A stretch of DNA of 6,279 nucleotides from Bacteroidales bacterium (GTDB taxonomy: Bacteria > Bacteroidota > Bacteroidia > Bacteroidales > WCHB1-69), in assembly GCA_024400715.1 (NCBI GenBank), contig JAKSMH010000072.1, positions 1-6,279 on the forward strand. Reading direction: 5' to 3'. Under the pieces are notes generated by a model. That model saw only the letters and a program-made list of their open reading frames with translations. It made no database searches and was not told the DNA's origin. The position numbers and the translations under genes are program-made. Below, one piece after another: positions 1 to 6,279 of the stretch (its first letter is position 1; each line of letters starts with the position of its first letter).

Positions 1-45
1 GTTTTTTTGCCGTATGCTAAAGCTTGAAAAATATAATATTTTATT

Positions 46-75
46 CAAAACTATCAAATTATTTTTTTGTGCCAA
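46..75 (-). promoter_or_regulatory. Candidate Bacteroidota-type promoter, reading out of the window
   Basis: On the minus strand a TTG (73-75) is followed after 19 bases by TAGTTTTG (46-53), which fits the Bacteroidota -33 / -7 pattern of TTG and TAnnTTTG. It lies beyond the tsf terminator and points left, so it would serve a minus-strand gene outside this window. No start codon for such a gene is visible before the edge. The spacer is AT-rich, so a chance match is quite possible. The remainder of the spacer to the left of tsf shows no gene, tRNA or repeat that I can support. Confidence 0.4.
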
Positions 76-178
76 GGAAAGTAACGAAAAATAACTATCA
101 TAAAACATTGGGTATTGGCTTTTTATAAGAAAATTGATATTATGGAAATATTTATTGGACAGCAGTATATTTTCGAAT

Positions 179-213
179 AAAAAAAAAGAGGATGTCAAGC
201 GACATCCTCTTTT
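179..213 (-). terminator. Intrinsic terminator after tsf
   Basis: A perfect inverted repeat (184-196 with 201-213) gives a 13-bp stem around the four-base loop 197-200, including the GC-richer core GAGGATGTC / GACATCCTC. On the minus strand the stem runs into nine consecutive T residues (complement of 179-187, partly inside the stem). It sits about 20 bases past the tsf stop codon and has the form of a strong factor-independent terminator for the rplM-rpsI-rpsB-tsf unit. On the plus strand only about four T follow the stem core, so it should work mainly in the minus direction. Confidence 0.94.
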
Positions 214-234
214 GTATCAATAAATGAAACCCAA

Positions 235-1233
235 TTAAGCACCCAATTGTACGCGGCAGAAACCTGTGCATTTGAGATTGCCGTCGATTTGTTTCATATA
301 GTCGGCAACGGTTAATTTACCATCCATGATAAATTCTTGACCAAGCAAGGTGTTTTCTTTGACGAATTTGTTCAAACGACCTTTGGCGATATTTTCAACC
401 ATCTTGTTGTCGATGTTCTGAGCTTTTTCTTCAGCAACGGTGGCTTTGATTTCACGAGTCTTGTTGGCTTCTTCTTCGGGCAACCAACCCTTGGTGATGT
501 TGGAAGCGATATGGTCGTCAGAATCCACGAGGTTAGGATTGATGTTGGCTTTCTTCAAAGCAACTTCAACTGCTTTTTGAATCAATTCGGCAACGGTTTT
601 TTCTTTGCCGATTTCCAATTCGTGGTCTTTAACTTCTTGTGAAAGTCCGTTTTCGTCAACAGCCATAGGATTCATAGCAGAAATCTGCATAGCGATGGTG
701 TGACCGGCTTCAACAACCTTTTCACCTGCCATATTGAATCCTGCGATAGCAGCCAAGCGGTTGCCATTGTGGTTGTAGAAAGCAACGCAAGGAGCTTCGA
801 TGTTGTCACCAATACATTCAAGCACTCCTGCTACGGTTTTGCCTGTCATATCAAGCAATAATTCAGAAACTTTGCGGCCTTCGATAGGCAGTTCCATCAA
901 TTCGTCGCGAGTTTTTACTTTTGCGGACATAGCGGCATCAATGATCTTTTCGGCGAAAGCGATGAAGTCGGCGTTTTTGCCAACGAAGTCGGTTTCGCAA
1001 CTAACCACGATAACGGCGCCGAAAGTGCTGTCAGCGTTAACTTTAGCGATGGCGCGACCTTCATTAGAAGCACGGTCGGCACGTTTTGCTGCCACTTTTT
1101 GACCTTTTTTTCTTAAAATATCGATAGCTTGTTCGTAATCGCCGTTGGCTTCAACGAGAGCGTTTTTGCAGTCCATCATGCCAGCGCCGGTTTCTTGTCT
1201 GAGCTTATTTACTTCAGCAGCTGTAATAGCCAT
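235..1233 (-). CDS. tsf: Elongation factor Ts
   Basis: EF-Ts is the cytosolic nucleotide exchange factor that releases GDP from EF-Tu so that it can bind GTP and aminoacyl-tRNA again. The 332-residue product has the UBA-like amino-terminal domain (about residues 1-55, with LRQETGAGMMDCKNAL). The EF-Tu-contacting core follows, with the diagnostic TDFV motif at residues 81-84. Two dimerization-type subdomains follow, and the carboxyl end contains LLGQEFIMDGKLTVADY. It is longer than the roughly 280 residues of the E. coli protein. The extra length includes a charged segment around residues 235-275, and about 330 residues is usual for Bacteroidales EF-Ts. The start is the first ATG, with the family-typical MAITAAEVNKLR beginning. 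The leader is A/T-rich with no Shine-Dalgarno sequence. The gene lies 30 bases after rpsB, a pairing conserved in most bacteria, and is the last gene before the terminator. Nothing looks damaged. Confidence 0.98.
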   Translation of the reverse strand: MAITAAEVNKLRQETGAGMMDCKNALVEANGDYEQAIDILRKKGQKVAAKRADRASNEGRAIAKVNADSTFGAVIVVSCETDFVGKNADFIAFAEKIIDAAMSAKVKTRDELMELPIEGRKVSELLLDMTGKTVAGVLECIGDNIEAPCVAFYNHNGNRLAAIAGFNMAGEKVVEAGHTIAMQISAMNPMAVDENGLSQEVKDHELEIGKEKTVAELIQKAVEVALKKANINPNLVDSDDHIASNITKGWLPEEEANKTREIKATVAEEKAQNIDNKMVENIAKGRLNKFVKENTLLGQEFIMDGKLTVADYMKQIDGNLKCTGFCRVQLGA

Positions 1234-1263
1234 AATATTAGAATTTTAAATGTTTATACTAAA

Positions 1264-2172
1264 TTAATTAGAAGCTTTGTTGGTACCCACTTTCTTTACG
1301 CCGGTAGTTCTTTTTCTTTTTGGTTTGTCATCGTCAGAAGCTTCGTCTTCGGCAACGGCTTTAACCTTTTTAACGACGTTTTTAGTGTCTTCCTTCTTTT
1401 CTTCATCGTCTTCTTCGTCGTTAGCAGCTTCGGAAACTCTTACGTCTTCGTCTTCTTCTTCAACGTCTTGGTTGTCTTTGTCCATTTTTCTTTCGTTCAA
1501 ACCTTCAGCGATGGCATCGCAGATGGCCTTTACGATAACGGAGATAGACTTTGAAGCGTCATCGTTAGCTGGGATTGGGAAGTCGATGAGGTTAGGATTG
1601 GAGTTGGTGTCAACGATAGCGAAAGTGTTGATGTTCAATCTACGAGCTTCGGCAACGGCGATGTGTTCTTTGAGAACGTCAACGATGAAAACGGCTGCGG
1701 GAAGGCGTGAAAGGTCGGCAATAGAACCAAGGTTCTTTTCCATTTTGGCTCTTTCACGAGTGATTTGCAGTTGTTCGCGCTTTGAAATGCTCTTGAATTG
1801 GTCACTTGCCATCAGTTTATCGATGTCACCCATTTTTTTCACGGCTTTGCGGATGGTGAAGAAGTTGGTGAGCATACCACCAGGCCAACGTTCAGTAACG
1901 TAAGGCATGTTAACGCCTTTAACGATTTCGGCGACGGTGTCCTTAGCTTGTTTTTTGGTAGCCACGAATAAGATCTTACGGCCGGATTTAGCAATTTGTT
2001 TGGCAGCGGCGCAAGCCTCTTCCAATTTGTCCATAGTTTTATAGAGGTCGATAATATGGATACCGTTTTTCTCCATAAAAATATATTGGGCCATTGCCGG
2101 GTTCCATTTTCTTCTGAGGTGTCCAAAATGACAACCTGCTTCTAATCAATCTTCAAATTTTAAATTTGCCAT
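1264..2172 (-). CDS. rpsB: 30S ribosomal protein S2, with an in-frame TGA at codon 9
   Basis: S2 (uS2) binds the back of the 30S head-body junction and is needed for S1 attachment. The core is typical: WNPAMAQYIFMEKNGIHII, FVATKKQA, ERWPGGMLTNF, LGSIADLSRLPAAVFIVD and DTNSNPNLIDFPIPANDDA. The continuous open frame begins only at ATG 2092-2094 (276 residues). However, the conserved amino end is encoded just upstream in the same frame: MANLKFED, then TGA, then LEAGCHFGHLRRK, starting from an ATG at 2170-2172. I therefore use that start, giving 302 codons before the final TAA, including the TGA. Relatives usually have leucine at the interrupted position, and TTA would differ by one base. Translation from the internal ATG would remove 26 codons, including conserved residues, and no Shine-Dalgarno sequence precedes it. 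From about residue 227 an unusual tail rich in Asp, Glu and Lys replaces the usual short end. The family call is certain; whether the gene is intact is not. Confidence 0.93.
2146..2148 (-). other. rpsB: In-frame TGA codon inside the rpsB amino-terminal coding region
   Basis: Read on the minus strand, the codons around this site give Phe-Glu-Asp-TGA-Leu-Glu-Ala-Gly, where S2 proteins of this group normally read Asp/Thr-Leu-Leu-Glu/Asp-Ala-Gly. Reading frame and homology are kept on both sides, so this is a single-codon change and not a frameshift. All eight Trp codons in the window are TGG and all nine complete genes end in TAA. The local data therefore give no support for a general reassignment of UGA. 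Confidence 0.9.
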
Positions 2173-2204
2173 TTGTTTTTTGTTGTTAATTGCTTACTTT
2201 CGTT

Positions 2205-2253
2205 TTGATTAATAATCAATTGCGGAGTAGTTCCTTTCGAAGTCTTCGCAATT
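2205..2253 (-). promoter_or_regulatory. Inverted repeats in the rpsI-rpsB spacer, possible S2 leader
   Basis: The 122-base spacer ahead of rpsB holds two adjacent inverted repeats. AATTGCG (2218-2224) pairs with CGCAATT (2247-2253) to close a 22-base interior. TTGATTA (2205-2211) pairs with TAATCAA (2213-2219) around a single central base. On the minus-strand RNA the larger stem comes first and the small one follows, sharing two bases. No T-tract follows, so this is not an intrinsic terminator. S2 is known to repress its own operon in other bacteria, which makes an autoregulatory leader plausible. I see no known consensus, and short AT-rich stems arise easily by chance. Confidence 0.3.
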
Positions 2254-2294
2254 TCGATACTAAACTAAGCGCATAATATATATTGTATAATATA

Positions 2295-2681
2295 TTAACG
2301 TTTGCTGAACTGGAATCTTCTACGAGCTTTTGGCTGACCAGGTTTCTTACGTTCTACCATACGAGGATCTCTTCTTAAGAGGCCTTTTGATTTGAGGGCA
2401 GGACGGAATTCTGGATTAACTTCGCAAAGGGCGCGTGAGATAGCGAGGCGGAGAGCTTCTGCCTGGCCGGTCATACCGCCACCGTCAAGGTTAACCTTAA
2501 TGTCGTATTCACCTTCTACTTGGGCGATTGCCAAAGGTTGGGTAACTACATACTGCAGGGTTGCCAACTGAAAATATTCTTTATAGTCACGTTTGTTAAT
2601 CGTGATGTTGCCACTACCTTTTTTCATATAGATACGGGCAACGGCGGTTTTTCTTCTACCGATTGTATTGATTACTTCCAT
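2295..2681 (-). CDS. rpsI: 30S ribosomal protein S9
   Basis: S9 (uS9) lies in the 30S head, and its extended basic carboxyl tail reaches the P site, where the terminal Arg contacts the tRNA anticodon loop. The 128-residue product shows the family pattern in full: INTIGRRKTAVARIYMKKGSG near the amino end, VNLDGGGMTGQAEALRLAISRAL in the middle (about residues 63-85), then LKSKGLLRRDPRMVERKKPGQPKARRRFQFSKR. The final SKR is intact. The start is the ATG five bases after the rplM stop. This L13-S9 coupling is nearly universal in bacteria and implies one mRNA. A GAGAG stretch precedes the ATG, but too close to act as a normal Shine-Dalgarno sequence. Confidence 0.98.
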   Translation of the reverse strand: MEVINTIGRRKTAVARIYMKKGSGNITINKRDYKEYFQLATLQYVVTQPLAIAQVEGEYDIKVNLDGGGMTGQAEALRLAISRALCEVNPEFRPALKSKGLLRRDPRMVERKKPGQPKARRRFQFSKR

Positions 2682-2686
2682 CTCTC

Positions 2687-3142
2687 TTATTTGATTTCGT
2701 TAATGTTGATTACTTTTGGATTTTGACCTTCGTGTGGATGTGTTGGTCCAGCATATACATGAAGATTGCGGAACAGTTGGTCTCCCAGTCTGTTTTTGGG
2801 AAGCATACCTCTGATGGCGTGTTCAACAACCTTGATGGGGTTCTTTTTCAACACTTCTCTTGGGGTCGCAAAGCGCTGTCCACCAGGATAAGTAGTGTGG
2901 TGTACATAAACTTTGTCCGTCATCTTGTGACCAGTAAATCTGATCTTTTCTGCGTTGATGATAATCACATTGTCACCACAATCAAAATGAGGGGTGTAGT
3001 AAGTTTTGTTTTTTCCTCTGAGAATGCGTGCAACTGCCGTGGCAAGTCGTCCAACGATCATCTCCTGAGCGTCAACAACAACCCATTCTTTTTTTACGAT
3101 CTTTTCGTTTGCCGAAATTGTTCTGTAACTTATTTGATCCAT
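2687..3142 (-). CDS. rplM: 50S ribosomal protein L13
   Basis: L13 (uL13) is an early-assembling 50S protein that binds 23S rRNA. The 151-residue product matches the family throughout: KKEWVVVDAQEMIVGRLA (about residues 17-34), the DCGDNVIIINAEKI strand (54-67), YPGG at 85-88 and the signature RGMLPKNRLG at 111-120, ending with HPHEGQNPKVI. The beginning MDQISYRTISANE resembles other Bacteroidales L13 proteins, which supports this ATG. It is the first gene of the left unit. A stable hairpin ends about 15 bases before the start codon and a candidate promoter lies about 100 bases upstream. In E. coli, L13 represses its own operon at the mRNA level. Confidence 0.98.
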   Translation of the reverse strand: MDQISYRTISANEKIVKKEWVVVDAQEMIVGRLATAVARILRGKNKTYYTPHFDCGDNVIIINAEKIRFTGHKMTDKVYVHHTTYPGGQRFATPREVLKKNPIKVVEHAIRGMLPKNRLGDQLFRNLHVYAGPTHPHEGQNPKVININEIK

Positions 3143-3157
3143 TTTTGTTTTTTTTGT

Positions 3158-3185
3158 GAGACAATGTCTTCACCCACATTGCCTC
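3158..3185 (-). promoter_or_regulatory. Hairpin in the rplM leader, candidate L13 autoregulatory element
   Basis: On the minus-strand RNA, GAGGCAAUG (complement of 3177-3185) pairs with CAUUGUCUC (complement of 3158-3166). This makes nine base pairs with one G-U, around the ten-base loop UGGGUGAAGA. The stem ends about 15 bases before the rplM ATG, separated by an A-rich run. No U-tract follows, so it is not a terminator. Its position is right for control of ribosome access by the L13 product. The stem is seen directly; the role is inferred from L13 autoregulation in other bacteria. I recall ribosomal-protein leaders being proposed for Bacteroidia but cannot verify a match. Confidence 0.5.
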
Positions 3186-3245
3186 GATTTTACTTAATTT
3201 TCCTTTTCTAACACAAAGGATAATAATCGGTATTTTTTGAGGGTG

Positions 3246-3253
3246 CAAAAATA
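3246..3253 (-). promoter_or_regulatory. Candidate -7 box of the rplM operon promoter
   Basis: The minus strand reads TATTTTTG here, an exact fit to the Bacteroidota TAnnTTTG box. It lies about 100 bases before the rplM start codon and upstream of the leader hairpin. A clear TTG is missing at the matching -33 distance (bases near 3273 read AAT on the minus strand), so only half of the expected promoter is visible. Its place in the divergent spacer makes it the best candidate for driving rplM-rpsI-rpsB-tsf. Confidence 0.5.
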
Positions 3254-3304
3254 CAAAATTTTTCTATATAAAATTAATTGTTGAAAATTTTTTTTGAGAA
3301 AATG

Positions 3305-3334
3305 TTGTTTGTATAAATAAAATTTTTATATTTG
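3305..3334 (+). promoter_or_regulatory. Candidate promoter of the secE-nusG-rplKAJL operon
   Basis: TTG (3305-3307), a 19-base spacer and TATATTTG (3327-3334) match the -33 / -7 arrangement of the main Bacteroidota sigma factor, with a fully conforming -7 box. Transcription would begin near 3341, leaving a leader of about 250 bases before secE. The box lies about 70 bases from the opposing rplM box, so the two promoters are back to back without overlapping. Confidence 0.65.
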
Positions 3335-3341
3335 CCGACCT

Positions 3342-3593
3342 TAACTATTGTAATGTTGCATAGAAGTATGTGATGGGAATTCTGGCGTGCAACTTATTGA
3401 AATTGAGGATGTTGAAAAATGTGGGATGGTGATAGAACGGCTTGTGACGAAGTGGAATGTGCGTAAAAATGCTCCGAAAAATTCCGAAATGGAGGGAAAA
3501 ACGGGGGGTGATACGTTGAAAAAAGCAAAAAATCCGTTCAAAAATAGAGAAAAGAAAAAAATATATATACAATTGAAGAAAAATTATTCGAAG
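3342..3593 (+). other. Long secE leader without a recognised gene
   Basis: This stretch lies between the candidate promoter and the SecE start. I find no tRNA cloverleaf, although a tRNA-Trp gene commonly precedes secE in related genomes. The plus strand is strongly purine-rich towards secE. One frame stays open into secE (from a GTG at 3387), giving a Lys-rich, low-complexity extension unlike SecE. Short possible ORFs start at ATG 3353 (six residues) and at ATG 3373 (19 residues, stop at 3432), with overlapping stop and start in ATGTGATG. GTTGCA (3355-3360) and TGCAAC (3388-3393) could pair as a weak stem. I would treat the region as untranslated leader. Confidence 0.5.
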
Positions 3594-3782
3594 ATGAAAA
3601 TAGTAAATTACCTCAAAGAAACTTATGACGAATTGGTGAGCAAAGTGTCATGGCCGTCAGCAAAAGATCTTCAAAGTAGCGTTTTGGTGGTGTCTATTGC
3701 TTCCCTTATAATAGCACTTATCGTGTTTTTGATGGACGCACTGTTCAACGCAGGGATGGGCTTGCTCTTCCCGACTATTTAA
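3594..3782 (+). CDS. secE: Preprotein translocase subunit SecE
   Basis: SecE is the small inner-membrane subunit that clamps SecY and stabilises the SecYEG protein-export channel. The 62-residue product has the essential SecE layout. A cytoplasmic amphipathic helix with the conserved YDELVSKVSWPSAKDL segment (residues 11-26) is followed by one transmembrane helix (about residues 29-50, rich in Val, Leu and Ile) and a short carboxyl end. The length matches the single-span SecE of most bacteria. An in-frame upstream GTG would add 69 residues of Lys-rich sequence with no family resemblance, so I chose the ATG directly before KIVNYLKETYDEL, where homology begins. It is the first gene of the right-hand unit and is followed by nusG, as in most bacteria. 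Confidence 0.95.
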   Translation: MKIVNYLKETYDELVSKVSWPSAKDLQSSVLVVSIASLIIALIVFLMDALFNAGMGLLFPTI

Positions 3783-3825
3783 TTTTCGGTAGTTTAATTA
3801 GGTATTTAACCGTAAACGAATTGAG

Positions 3826-4377
3826 ATGGCAGAGATCGAACGCAAGTGGTATGTGATTAAGACAGTCACTGGTACCGAGAAAAAGGTGAAGCAGAATATC
3901 GAAAGCGAAATTGAGGCTTCCCATATCAAGGACTTTGTGTCTTGTGTCTTGATTCCAACCGAGAAGTATTACCAGATTCGCAATGGAAAGAAAATCAGTA
4001 AGGAAAGAAACTATTTTCCGGGTTACATCTTTGTTGAGGCAATGATGCTGGGAGAGGTTTTCCATGTCTTATTGAATATTCCTGGCGTTTTGGGCTTCGT
4101 AGGTTGCAAGAAGAAAACGGACCCACCTGTGCCTTTGCGCCCTGCCGAAGTCACCCGTATGTTGGGGAAAGTGGATGAATTGCTCGAACAAGACGAATCC
4201 TTTACTCTTCCTTTCATCGTGGGCGAAGAAATCAAGGTCGTTGACGGGCCTTTCAGCACTTTTAACGGAATTATTGAAGAAATCAATCCCGAGAAAAAGA
4301 AACTGAAGGTTATGGTGAAAATCTTCGGTCGTAAAACCCCGCTTGAGTTGAGTTTTATGCAGGTTGAAAAGGTATAA
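3826..4377 (+). CDS. nusG: Transcription termination/antitermination factor NusG
   Basis: NusG binds the clamp of RNA polymerase, affects pausing and Rho-dependent termination, and can link polymerase to the ribosome. The 183-residue product has the NGN domain (about residues 6-115), with [15 protein letters not shown] and the family signature FPGYIFVEA at 64-72. A linker leads to the carboxyl-terminal KOW domain (about 131-183), with [18 protein letters not shown] and a final hydrophobic strand. Length and domain order are those of ordinary NusG, not of the specialised paralogues such as RfaH or UpxY. The start is the ATG giving [10 protein letters not shown], 43 bases after secE. Confidence 0.97.
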
Positions 4378-4418
4378 ATACCAATTATATTAGTTACAAA
4401 CAAAAAAAATTAACAAAA

Positions 4419-4868
4419 ATGGCAAAAGAAGTAGCTGGACTTATTAAGTTACAGATTAAAGGTGGCGCCGCTAATCCATCTCCCCCAGTAGGACCTGCCT
4501 TAGGTGCAAAGGGCGTGAACATTATGGAATTTTGCAAGCAGTTCAATGCTCGTACGCAAGATTTGGCTGGCAAGTTAGTGCCGGTAATCATTACTGTTTA
4601 CAAGGATAAATCTTTTGATTTTGTCACCAAAACGCCACCAGTTGCAGTCCAATTGTTGGAAGCAGCTAAAATTCAAAAAGGATCTAAGGAACCTAACCGT
4701 AACAAAGTGGCCACCCTTACTTGGGACCAGGTGAAAACCATCGCAGAAGTAAAAATGCCTGACTTAAACTGCTTCGAGATTAAATCAGCTATGAGCATGG
4801 TTGCCGGTACCGCAAGAAGTATGGGTATCACGGTTAAAGGCGGAACCAATCCTTCTGAACTCAATTAA
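4419..4868 (+). CDS. rplK: 50S ribosomal protein L11
   Basis: L11 (uL11) binds the GTPase-associated region of 23S rRNA at the base of the L7/L12 stalk. It takes part in factor binding and, in other species, in the stringent response through RelA. The 149-residue product has the amino-terminal domain with the proline-rich switch segment [20 protein letters not shown] (residues 19-38), the area where thiostrepton-type antibiotics act on this complex. The rRNA-binding domain follows from about residue 70, with TPPVAVQLL and [12 protein letters not shown]. It is a few residues longer than the E. coli protein, with the extra length at the carboxyl end (GGTNPSELN). The ATG follows an A-rich leader lacking a Shine-Dalgarno sequence, 41 bases after nusG. 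Confidence 0.98.
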
Positions 4869-4890
4869 TTAACAAAGTAAAAAAATCAAC

Positions 4891-5586
4891 ATGGCTAAAA
4901 TATCAAAAAAACGCAAAGAAGCTTTTGCTAAATTTGATAAGAACAAAGTTTACCCTTTGACCGAAGCTGTTAAGATCGTGAAGGATATTACTTATACCAA
5001 GTTTGATGCATCTTTCGACATCGACGTCCGTTTGGGCGTTGACCCTCGTAAGGCCAATCAAATGGTTAGAGGTATCGTTACCCTTCCCCACGGAACAGGT
5101 AAGGTGGTTAGAGTGCTTGTTCTTTGTACTCCCGACAAGGAGGCTGAAGCAAAGGCAGCTGGCGCCGACTATGTAGGATTGGACGAATACGTTGATAAAA
5201 TCAAAAAAGGTTGGACCGACGTTGACGTTATCATCACTATGCCGAGCGTTATGCCAAAAATCGGTGCCCTTGGTAAGGTTTTGGGTCCCCGTGGCTTGAT
5301 GCCTAACCCTAAAGCCGGTACCGTAACCATGGAAATCGGTAAGGCTGTTGCTGATGTGAAGGCCGGTAAGATTGACTTCAAAGTTGACAAATTCGGTATC
5401 ATCCACTCAGGTATCGGTAAAATTAATTTCGATGCCGACAAGCTGGTTGAAAATACCCGCGAAATGATGTCAACTATTATTAAGTTGAAACCGACTGCCG
5501 CAAAAGGAACGTACATTAAGAGTATTTACCTCTCAAGTACCATGAGCCCCGGTGTACAAGTTGATGTGAAATCAGTTACATTATAA
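4891..5586 (+). CDS. rplA: 50S ribosomal protein L1
   Basis: L1 (uL1) forms the mobile L1 stalk that helps release deacylated tRNA from the E site. In many bacteria it also represses translation of its own L11-L1 mRNA. The 231-residue product has the standard length and two-domain layout: an outer domain I split by a central domain II (about residues 67-160). The strongly conserved segment [20 protein letters not shown] is at residues 124-143, and [15 protein letters not shown] follows at 163-177. The start [12 protein letters not shown] is typical. It lies 22 bases after rplK. No clear copy of the L1-binding rRNA-like structure was recognised around rplK or rplA, but I could not fold the region. 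Confidence 0.98.
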
Positions 5587-5604
5587 TCTTAAAAAAGCTA
5601 AAGT

Positions 5605-6123
5605 ATGAAACAAGAAGAGAAAAGTGTTATCATTGATGCCATCGCAAAGGACTTAGCTGAGTATGCGAATGTATATGTAACCGATATTTCCGGCTTCACA
5701 GTGGAAACAGTTAACCAACTGAGAAGACAATGCTTCCGTCGCGACATTAAGTTGAAAGTCGTTAAAAACACTTTGCTTAAACGCGCTATGGAACAGTCTG
5801 AAGTTGACTATTCTGAAATCTATCCCGCCTTGGCCGGCACTACTTCAATTATGCTGTGCAACACAGGAAACGCTCCTGCTAAGTTAATCAAGGACTTCCG
5901 CGCTAAAAACAAAAAGCCCATCCTTAAGGCAGCATTTATTGAACAAGCAACTTATTTCGGTGACGAACAATTGGATACCCTCTGCAACATCAAGTCAAGA
6001 GAAGAACTGATCGGCGACATCGTGGGTTTACTGCAGTCTCCCGCTCGCAACGTTATCTCTGCTTTGCAGTCAGGTGGTGGCAAGCTCGCAGGCATCGTAA
6101 AAACCTTGTCAGAAAGAAATTAA
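5605..6123 (+). CDS. rplJ: 50S ribosomal protein L10
   Basis: L10 (uL10) anchors dimers of L7/L12 to the ribosome and forms the base of the factor-recruiting stalk. The 172-residue product has the amino-terminal rRNA-binding domain, including VYVTDISGFTVETVNQLRRQ (residues 23-42) and KLKVVKNTLLKRAM (49-62). The carboxyl-terminal helical part, which binds L7/L12, has SREELIGDIVGLLQSPARNV (131-150) and ends with IVKTLSERN. The length is usual for bacteria. It begins only 18 bases after rplA, so the long L10-binding leader that E. coli has before rplJ is absent here. Control by L10, if it exists, must act elsewhere on the transcript. Confidence 0.98.
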   Translation: MKQEEKSVIIDAIAKDLAEYANVYVTDISGFTVETVNQLRRQCFRRDIKLKVVKNTLLKRAMEQSEVDYSEIYPALAGTTSIMLCNTGNAPAKLIKDFRAKNKKPILKAAFIEQATYFGDEQLDTLCNIKSREELIGDIVGLLQSPARNVISALQSGGGKLAGIVKTLSERN

Positions 6124-6172
6124 AAAATCAATTTTATTAAACAAAGTAAATAACCATTAAAATAATACAATT

Positions 6173-6279
6173 ATGGCAGATTTAAAAGCATTTGCAGAAC
6201 AATTAGTTAATTTAACAGTTAAGGAAGTTAACGAATTAGCTCAAATTTTGAAAGAAGAATACGGTATTGAACCAGCAGC
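6173..6279 (+). CDS. rplL: 50S ribosomal protein L7/L12, amino-terminal part
   Basis: Thirty-five complete codons are present before the window ends, out of about 125 expected. They encode [20 protein letters not shown] followed by [15 protein letters not shown]. This matches the amino-terminal dimerization domain of L7/L12, through which the protein attaches to L10, up to the start of the Ala-rich hinge. L7/L12 forms the flexible stalk that recruits and stimulates translation GTPases. The start ATG follows an A/T-rich 49-base spacer after rplJ, a conserved pairing. The truncation is due only to the window edge. Confidence 0.95.

Follow-up and report, generated by a model that had tools for sequence, protein, structure and literature searches.

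Analysis of a 6,279-nucleotide stretch of DNA (hereafter the window) showed an in-frame TGA at codon 9 of rpsB, the gene for ribosomal protein uS2, at a site where the relatives examined have leucine. This TGA is probably a private single-base change in one record, introduced most likely by a base-calling or assembly error into an rpsB that is otherwise ordinary. The preliminary description had offered an error, a strain mosaic, readthrough and an internal start as possibilities. Homology upstream of the first internal start codon, together with leucine in the relatives, puts an error or a private mutation first, and an error would be the more likely of these two on the sequence comparisons. 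The record comes from an uncultured gut bacterium of the Bacteroidales near the metagenome-assembled genome (MAG) Horse_feces119. Its rpsB would be ordinary and decoded normally, the TGA would not be a feature of the organism, and UGA would still serve as a stop codon read by RF2. Ranked by judgement rather than by computed odds, an error is probable, a real allele comes second and is unlikely, a strain mosaic is third and very unlikely, and recoding of UGA is last and scarcely credible. The features discussed are listed in Table 1.

Table 1. Features of the window in and around rpsB and tsf.
Feature	Position	Strand	Remarks
rpsB (ribosomal protein uS2)	1264..2172	-	302 codons plus TAA, interrupted at codon 9; PF00318 and TIGR01011 above cut-off
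In-frame TGA, rpsB codon 9	2146..2148	-	Leucine in P0001-P0007 and L001-L004
ATG, rpsB codon 27	2092..2094	-	First in-frame ATG/GTG/TTG past the TGA; opens a 276-codon frame
rpsI-rpsB intergenic leader	2173..2294	-	Comparison with L001 and L005
tsf, private replacement of 11 codons (EF-Ts codons 134-144)	802..834	-	Comparison with the relatives examined

The rpsB reading frame and its relatives

The window holds, besides rpsB, genes that we take from their sequences to be rplM, rpsI and tsf (minus strand, in the order rplM, rpsI, rpsB, tsf) and secE, nusG, rplK, rplA, rplJ and the start of rplL (plus strand). The tenth gene, rplL, extends past the window edge, and the remaining nine all end in TAA. 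A recount agreed with the preliminary description that all eight tryptophan codons are TGG and all nine stops TAA, and the TGA it had reported in rpsB was confirmed at 2148-2146 on the minus strand, as the sole internal stop across the ten gene frames. The rpsB frame runs from an ATG at 2172-2170 to a TAA ending at 1264, its amino end reading MANLKFED-stop-LEAGCHFGHLRRKWNPAM..., so that the frame from the conserved start is interrupted at codon 9; no further stop lies between the TGA and the internal ATG at 2094. Profile matches placed the product in the uS2 family both as a read-through form (PF00318, 295 bits; TIGR01011, 283 bits) and as the 276-aa form (257 and 244 bits, respectively), against cut-offs of 26.1 and 76.3. 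The gene thus resembles an ordinary Bacteroidales rpsB (uS2; PF00318, TIGR01011) in sequence, in its frame of 302 codons, in the conserved amino end and in the collinearity of window positions 179-6279 with the nearest relative, but departs from it in carrying TGA as codon 9.

Relatives, all of them strains other than the window's own, were compared at the level of both contigs and proteins. A scan of genome contigs, from which the best 80 of 555 loci were kept, gave as the closest of these 80 the locus L001 in the Bacteroidales MAG Horse_feces119 (genome G001) from horse faeces, collinear with window 179-6279 at 94.9% DNA identity over 6118 bases. Its rpsB frame is uninterrupted and encodes leucine at codon 9. 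Over rpsB codons 1-26, two synonymous changes and the stop account for all differences between L001 and the window, and around the stop, in a stretch that includes the rpsI-rpsB leader, 344 of 350 bases are equal. Because L001 has the same codons in an open frame, the codons upstream of 2094 truly belong to rpsB, as the preliminary description had proposed when it recognised an S2 amino end there. Its expectation of leucine at codon 9 was likewise borne out, by L001 and by a protein search (best 120 of 8000 scored proteins, 21 of the 120 inspected). The seven near-identical proteins found (P0001-P0007; 302 aa, 99-100% identical to the read-through query after rounding, with Ala in P0001 against Ser in the window at 247) all carry Leu9, and they represent 34 + 3 + 7 + 1 + 1 + 3 + 1 = 50 contigs. 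An S2 of 276 aa was absent from the best 120 of 8000 scored proteins; judging from the scores, such a form from the window's species would be expected to outrank P0008. Among the proteins listed for S2, and likewise among those for EF-Ts, none was labelled as the window's own, so its record seems to be absent from this protein database.

More widely, codon 9 was readable in 79 of the best 80 (of 555) loci and encodes Leu in 75, Met in three and Arg in one (L005); the contig of L045, which begins past this codon, was left out of the tally. Among family loci it was readable in 30 of 31, with 29 Leu and one Arg (L085), L085 being from the same genome as L005 and five of the 31 loci from the genomes of L001-L005. 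The 14-base string TGATTAGAAGCAGG occurred in none of 158 loci, and an exact search of viral contigs for the stop-bearing stretch returned nothing. In the family survey, 91 of 104 genomes had an rpsB match and 13 had none, giving 93 match rows, of which none had an internal TGA; one TAA each was present in three rows (G024, G070 and G068), where it may be the normal end. Matches began at query residues 1-3 in 90 of the 93 rows. In the other three the match starts at residue 10 (G005), starts at residue 86 on a contig that runs out toward the beginning of the gene (G008), or is the second piece of an rpsB divided over two frames (G012).

Two of these genes are broken in ways of their own. In G012 (G012:C2:27463-28243) the frame is split near residue 103, perhaps by an indel error. 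In L005, the locus of G005 and of the same genus as the window, about 110 bases are absent around 1660-1690, corresponding to most of the rpsI-rpsB leader and rpsB codons 1-9; this gap, whose end adjoins the codon read as TGA in the window, may reflect faulty assembly or a real deletion. One deletion and one split frame in 91 matching genomes indicate that a broken rpsB occasionally appears in such assemblies.

The rpsI-rpsB stretch itself is well conserved in L001-L004, where ATTGCGAAG...CTCCGCAAT could form a paired element, and it may represent a leader RNA of S2. When the window was searched against Rfam for leader RNAs or recoding elements, the two matches with E values of 1 or less both fell short of their gathering scores. 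The 8-base word ATTGATTA occurs in the leader at 2213-2220 and again over the stop at 2143-2150. The idea that the stop was copied from the leader word was dropped, as eight bases are too short to carry meaning.

Nonsense allele, strain mosaic and quality of the record

The TGA could instead be a real, recent nonsense allele in a living strain, in which translation either starts at the internal ATG, giving an S2 that lacks residues 1-26, or reads through the UGA at a low level. We regard this as unlikely. The internal start is in frame behind codons free of stops, and the shortened protein would keep 257 of the 295 bits of PF00318; the lost part, however, holds the first 18 positions of that profile. 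Three of the 21 proteins inspected from the best 120 (P0075, P0077 and P0079; 272, 272 and 274 aa) are recorded as starting at the Met equivalent to codon 27, and L005 is without codons 1-9 and most of the leader. These proteins are 86-87% identical to the window S2, i.e., they belong to other species, and their recorded starts may be start-calling choices, just as L005 may be an assembly fault. Against a dispensable amino end, the upstream codons are retained in P0001-P0007 and in the genome of L001, and the HFGH..RKWNP stretch (searched as a loose pattern) was found in all of the best 80 (of 555) loci. Among solved S2 chains (best 60 of 157), matches begin at query residues 1-10, with one chloroplast chain beginning at 18. 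Passages of one source describe E. coli ribosomes without S2 as also lacking S1 and cite a conditionally lethal rpsB mutation (PMC3296737). These passages fit the view of S2 as essential, given in the preliminary description, and they speak against a true null and leave a truncated S2 possible but doubtful.

Whether the record is otherwise sound was assessed from the changes on each branch, polarised against L002-L004 over the ten genes with the tsf block left out (68 sites ambiguous, 15 fitting neither, 18 codons skipped). The window branch had 49 synonymous and 8 non-synonymous changes, the latter including the stop and comprising 2 transitions and 6 transversions, and the L001 branch had 61 and 8, respectively, with 3 transitions and 5 transversions. 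These counts indicate that the window genes are under normal constraint, and the rpsB stop is one private change among few. Once the rpsB stop and the tsf block are set aside, the record seems clean, and with a non-synonymous count equal to that of L001 its error rate is not visibly high. The 6 transversions among 8 non-synonymous changes are no sign of error either, since the L001 branch has 5 of 8.

The tsf block is a second private anomaly. Codons 134-144 read VAGVLECIGDN in the window and GEKVELPAYNT in the closest proteins, a replacement that preserves frame and length in a stretch otherwise nearly invariant. GEK opens this stretch in all 13 aligned relatives (chosen from the best 120 listed) and in the other genus loci compared. 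The block did not occur within 3 mismatches in nine genus genomes, and no possible copy source turned up in the window or the compared loci, where every other place differed by more than 11 mismatches. That one 6.3-kb record should hold two private anomalies, both in conserved genes, raises the likelihood that it is unreliable, and the tsf block hints that this may be so locally; real recombination is a possible origin of the block.

A strain mosaic, i.e., a contig joining reads of at least two strains, one of them with a dead or rearranged rpsB/tsf segment, would account for a tsf block foreign to the relatives examined, and window positions 1-178 also found no match in the nine genus genomes. 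Nevertheless, we consider it very improbable. Around the stop the agreement with L001 is such that no switch between strains is visible, and positions 1-178 look like AT-rich intergenic DNA at the end of a record, where loss of similarity is expected; the empty search result for them shows nothing by itself. Similarity to L001 stops at a terminator-like hairpin after tsf.

UGA decoding in the lineage

The meaning of UGA was examined in the nearest genome, G001, and in genus genomes, which stand in for the window's own. A mechanical tally of G001 open reading frames of at least 150 aa (n = 98; seven 20-kb pieces, 140 kb) gave TAA as the stop of 76, TAG of 13 and TGA of 9. As TGA accounts for only 9 of 98 stops there, its absence from the nine stops of the window is unremarkable. 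The gene for RF2, prfB, was above cut-off in eight of nine genus genomes, and the ninth, G003, gave a match of 286 bits, under the cut-off, and one of 89 bits to a piece at the edge of a contig. In all five genus genomes inspected (L090-L094, including G001), prfB begins with a short frame in which GAGGAGG precedes a terminal CTT TGA; shifting by +1 at this site gives access to an open frame of 339-340 aa that contains GGQ. We take this layout to be the RF2 autoregulatory frameshift, which works only with UGA as a stop. In G001, prfB has one additional TGA in the downstream frame, ahead of the frameshift site.

The tRNA set of G001 comprises 39 matches, of which 37 were typed by ARAGORN, among them Trp CCA; none of the 37 typed has a UCA anticodon, and two contig-end fragments were left untyped. 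The set contains no Ala or Ile tRNA, indicating that this MAG is incomplete. The gathering score of 47 for tRNA-Sec was reached in none of the nine genus genomes (best 46.8 bits), and the five places inspected were tRNA-Ser with anticodon UGA, so selenocysteine at the rpsB UGA was rejected. UGA is thus a normal stop in this lineage and the nearest genome appears to use the standard code, which adds to the local evidence against a changed code put forward in the preliminary description.

Comparison with known systems points the same way. The window shares with UGA reassignment (genetic codes 4 and 25) a UGA within a conserved frame, but this is a single site in ten genes rather than UGA at many conserved sense positions, and leucine is expected there, not Trp or Gly. 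The nearest genome also differs from such codes, in that RF2 and TGA stops are retained. With prfB, rpsB shares an early UGA in a translation gene, but the relatives examined have no UGA at this rpsB site, and no frame change would be needed because, unlike in prfB, the same frame continues past the UGA. Recoding of UGA as Leu, Trp, Sec or another residue in the window's organism, which the exclusive use of TAA stops in the window would suit, is so improbable that we reject it, given the TGA stops, the prfB genes and their frameshift sites and the tRNAs of the relatives, and also because the known bacterial reassignments of UGA go to Trp or Gly (PMC8629427).

Implications for S2

A broader reading would be that S2 residues 1-26 are dispensable in the genus, with strains that carry lesions in codons 1-9 (the stop in the window, the deletion in G005) using the Met27 start. 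We think this very improbable, more so than a real allele in the window by itself. If it were true, such strains would have ribosomes with an altered S2 amino end, and use of the internal start would mean that natural strains can lose a conserved segment of a universal ribosomal protein. If, as we consider probable, the TGA is a private error in an ordinary rpsB, it serves as a caution: a lone single-base stop in an essential gene should be compared with relatives before it is read as biology.
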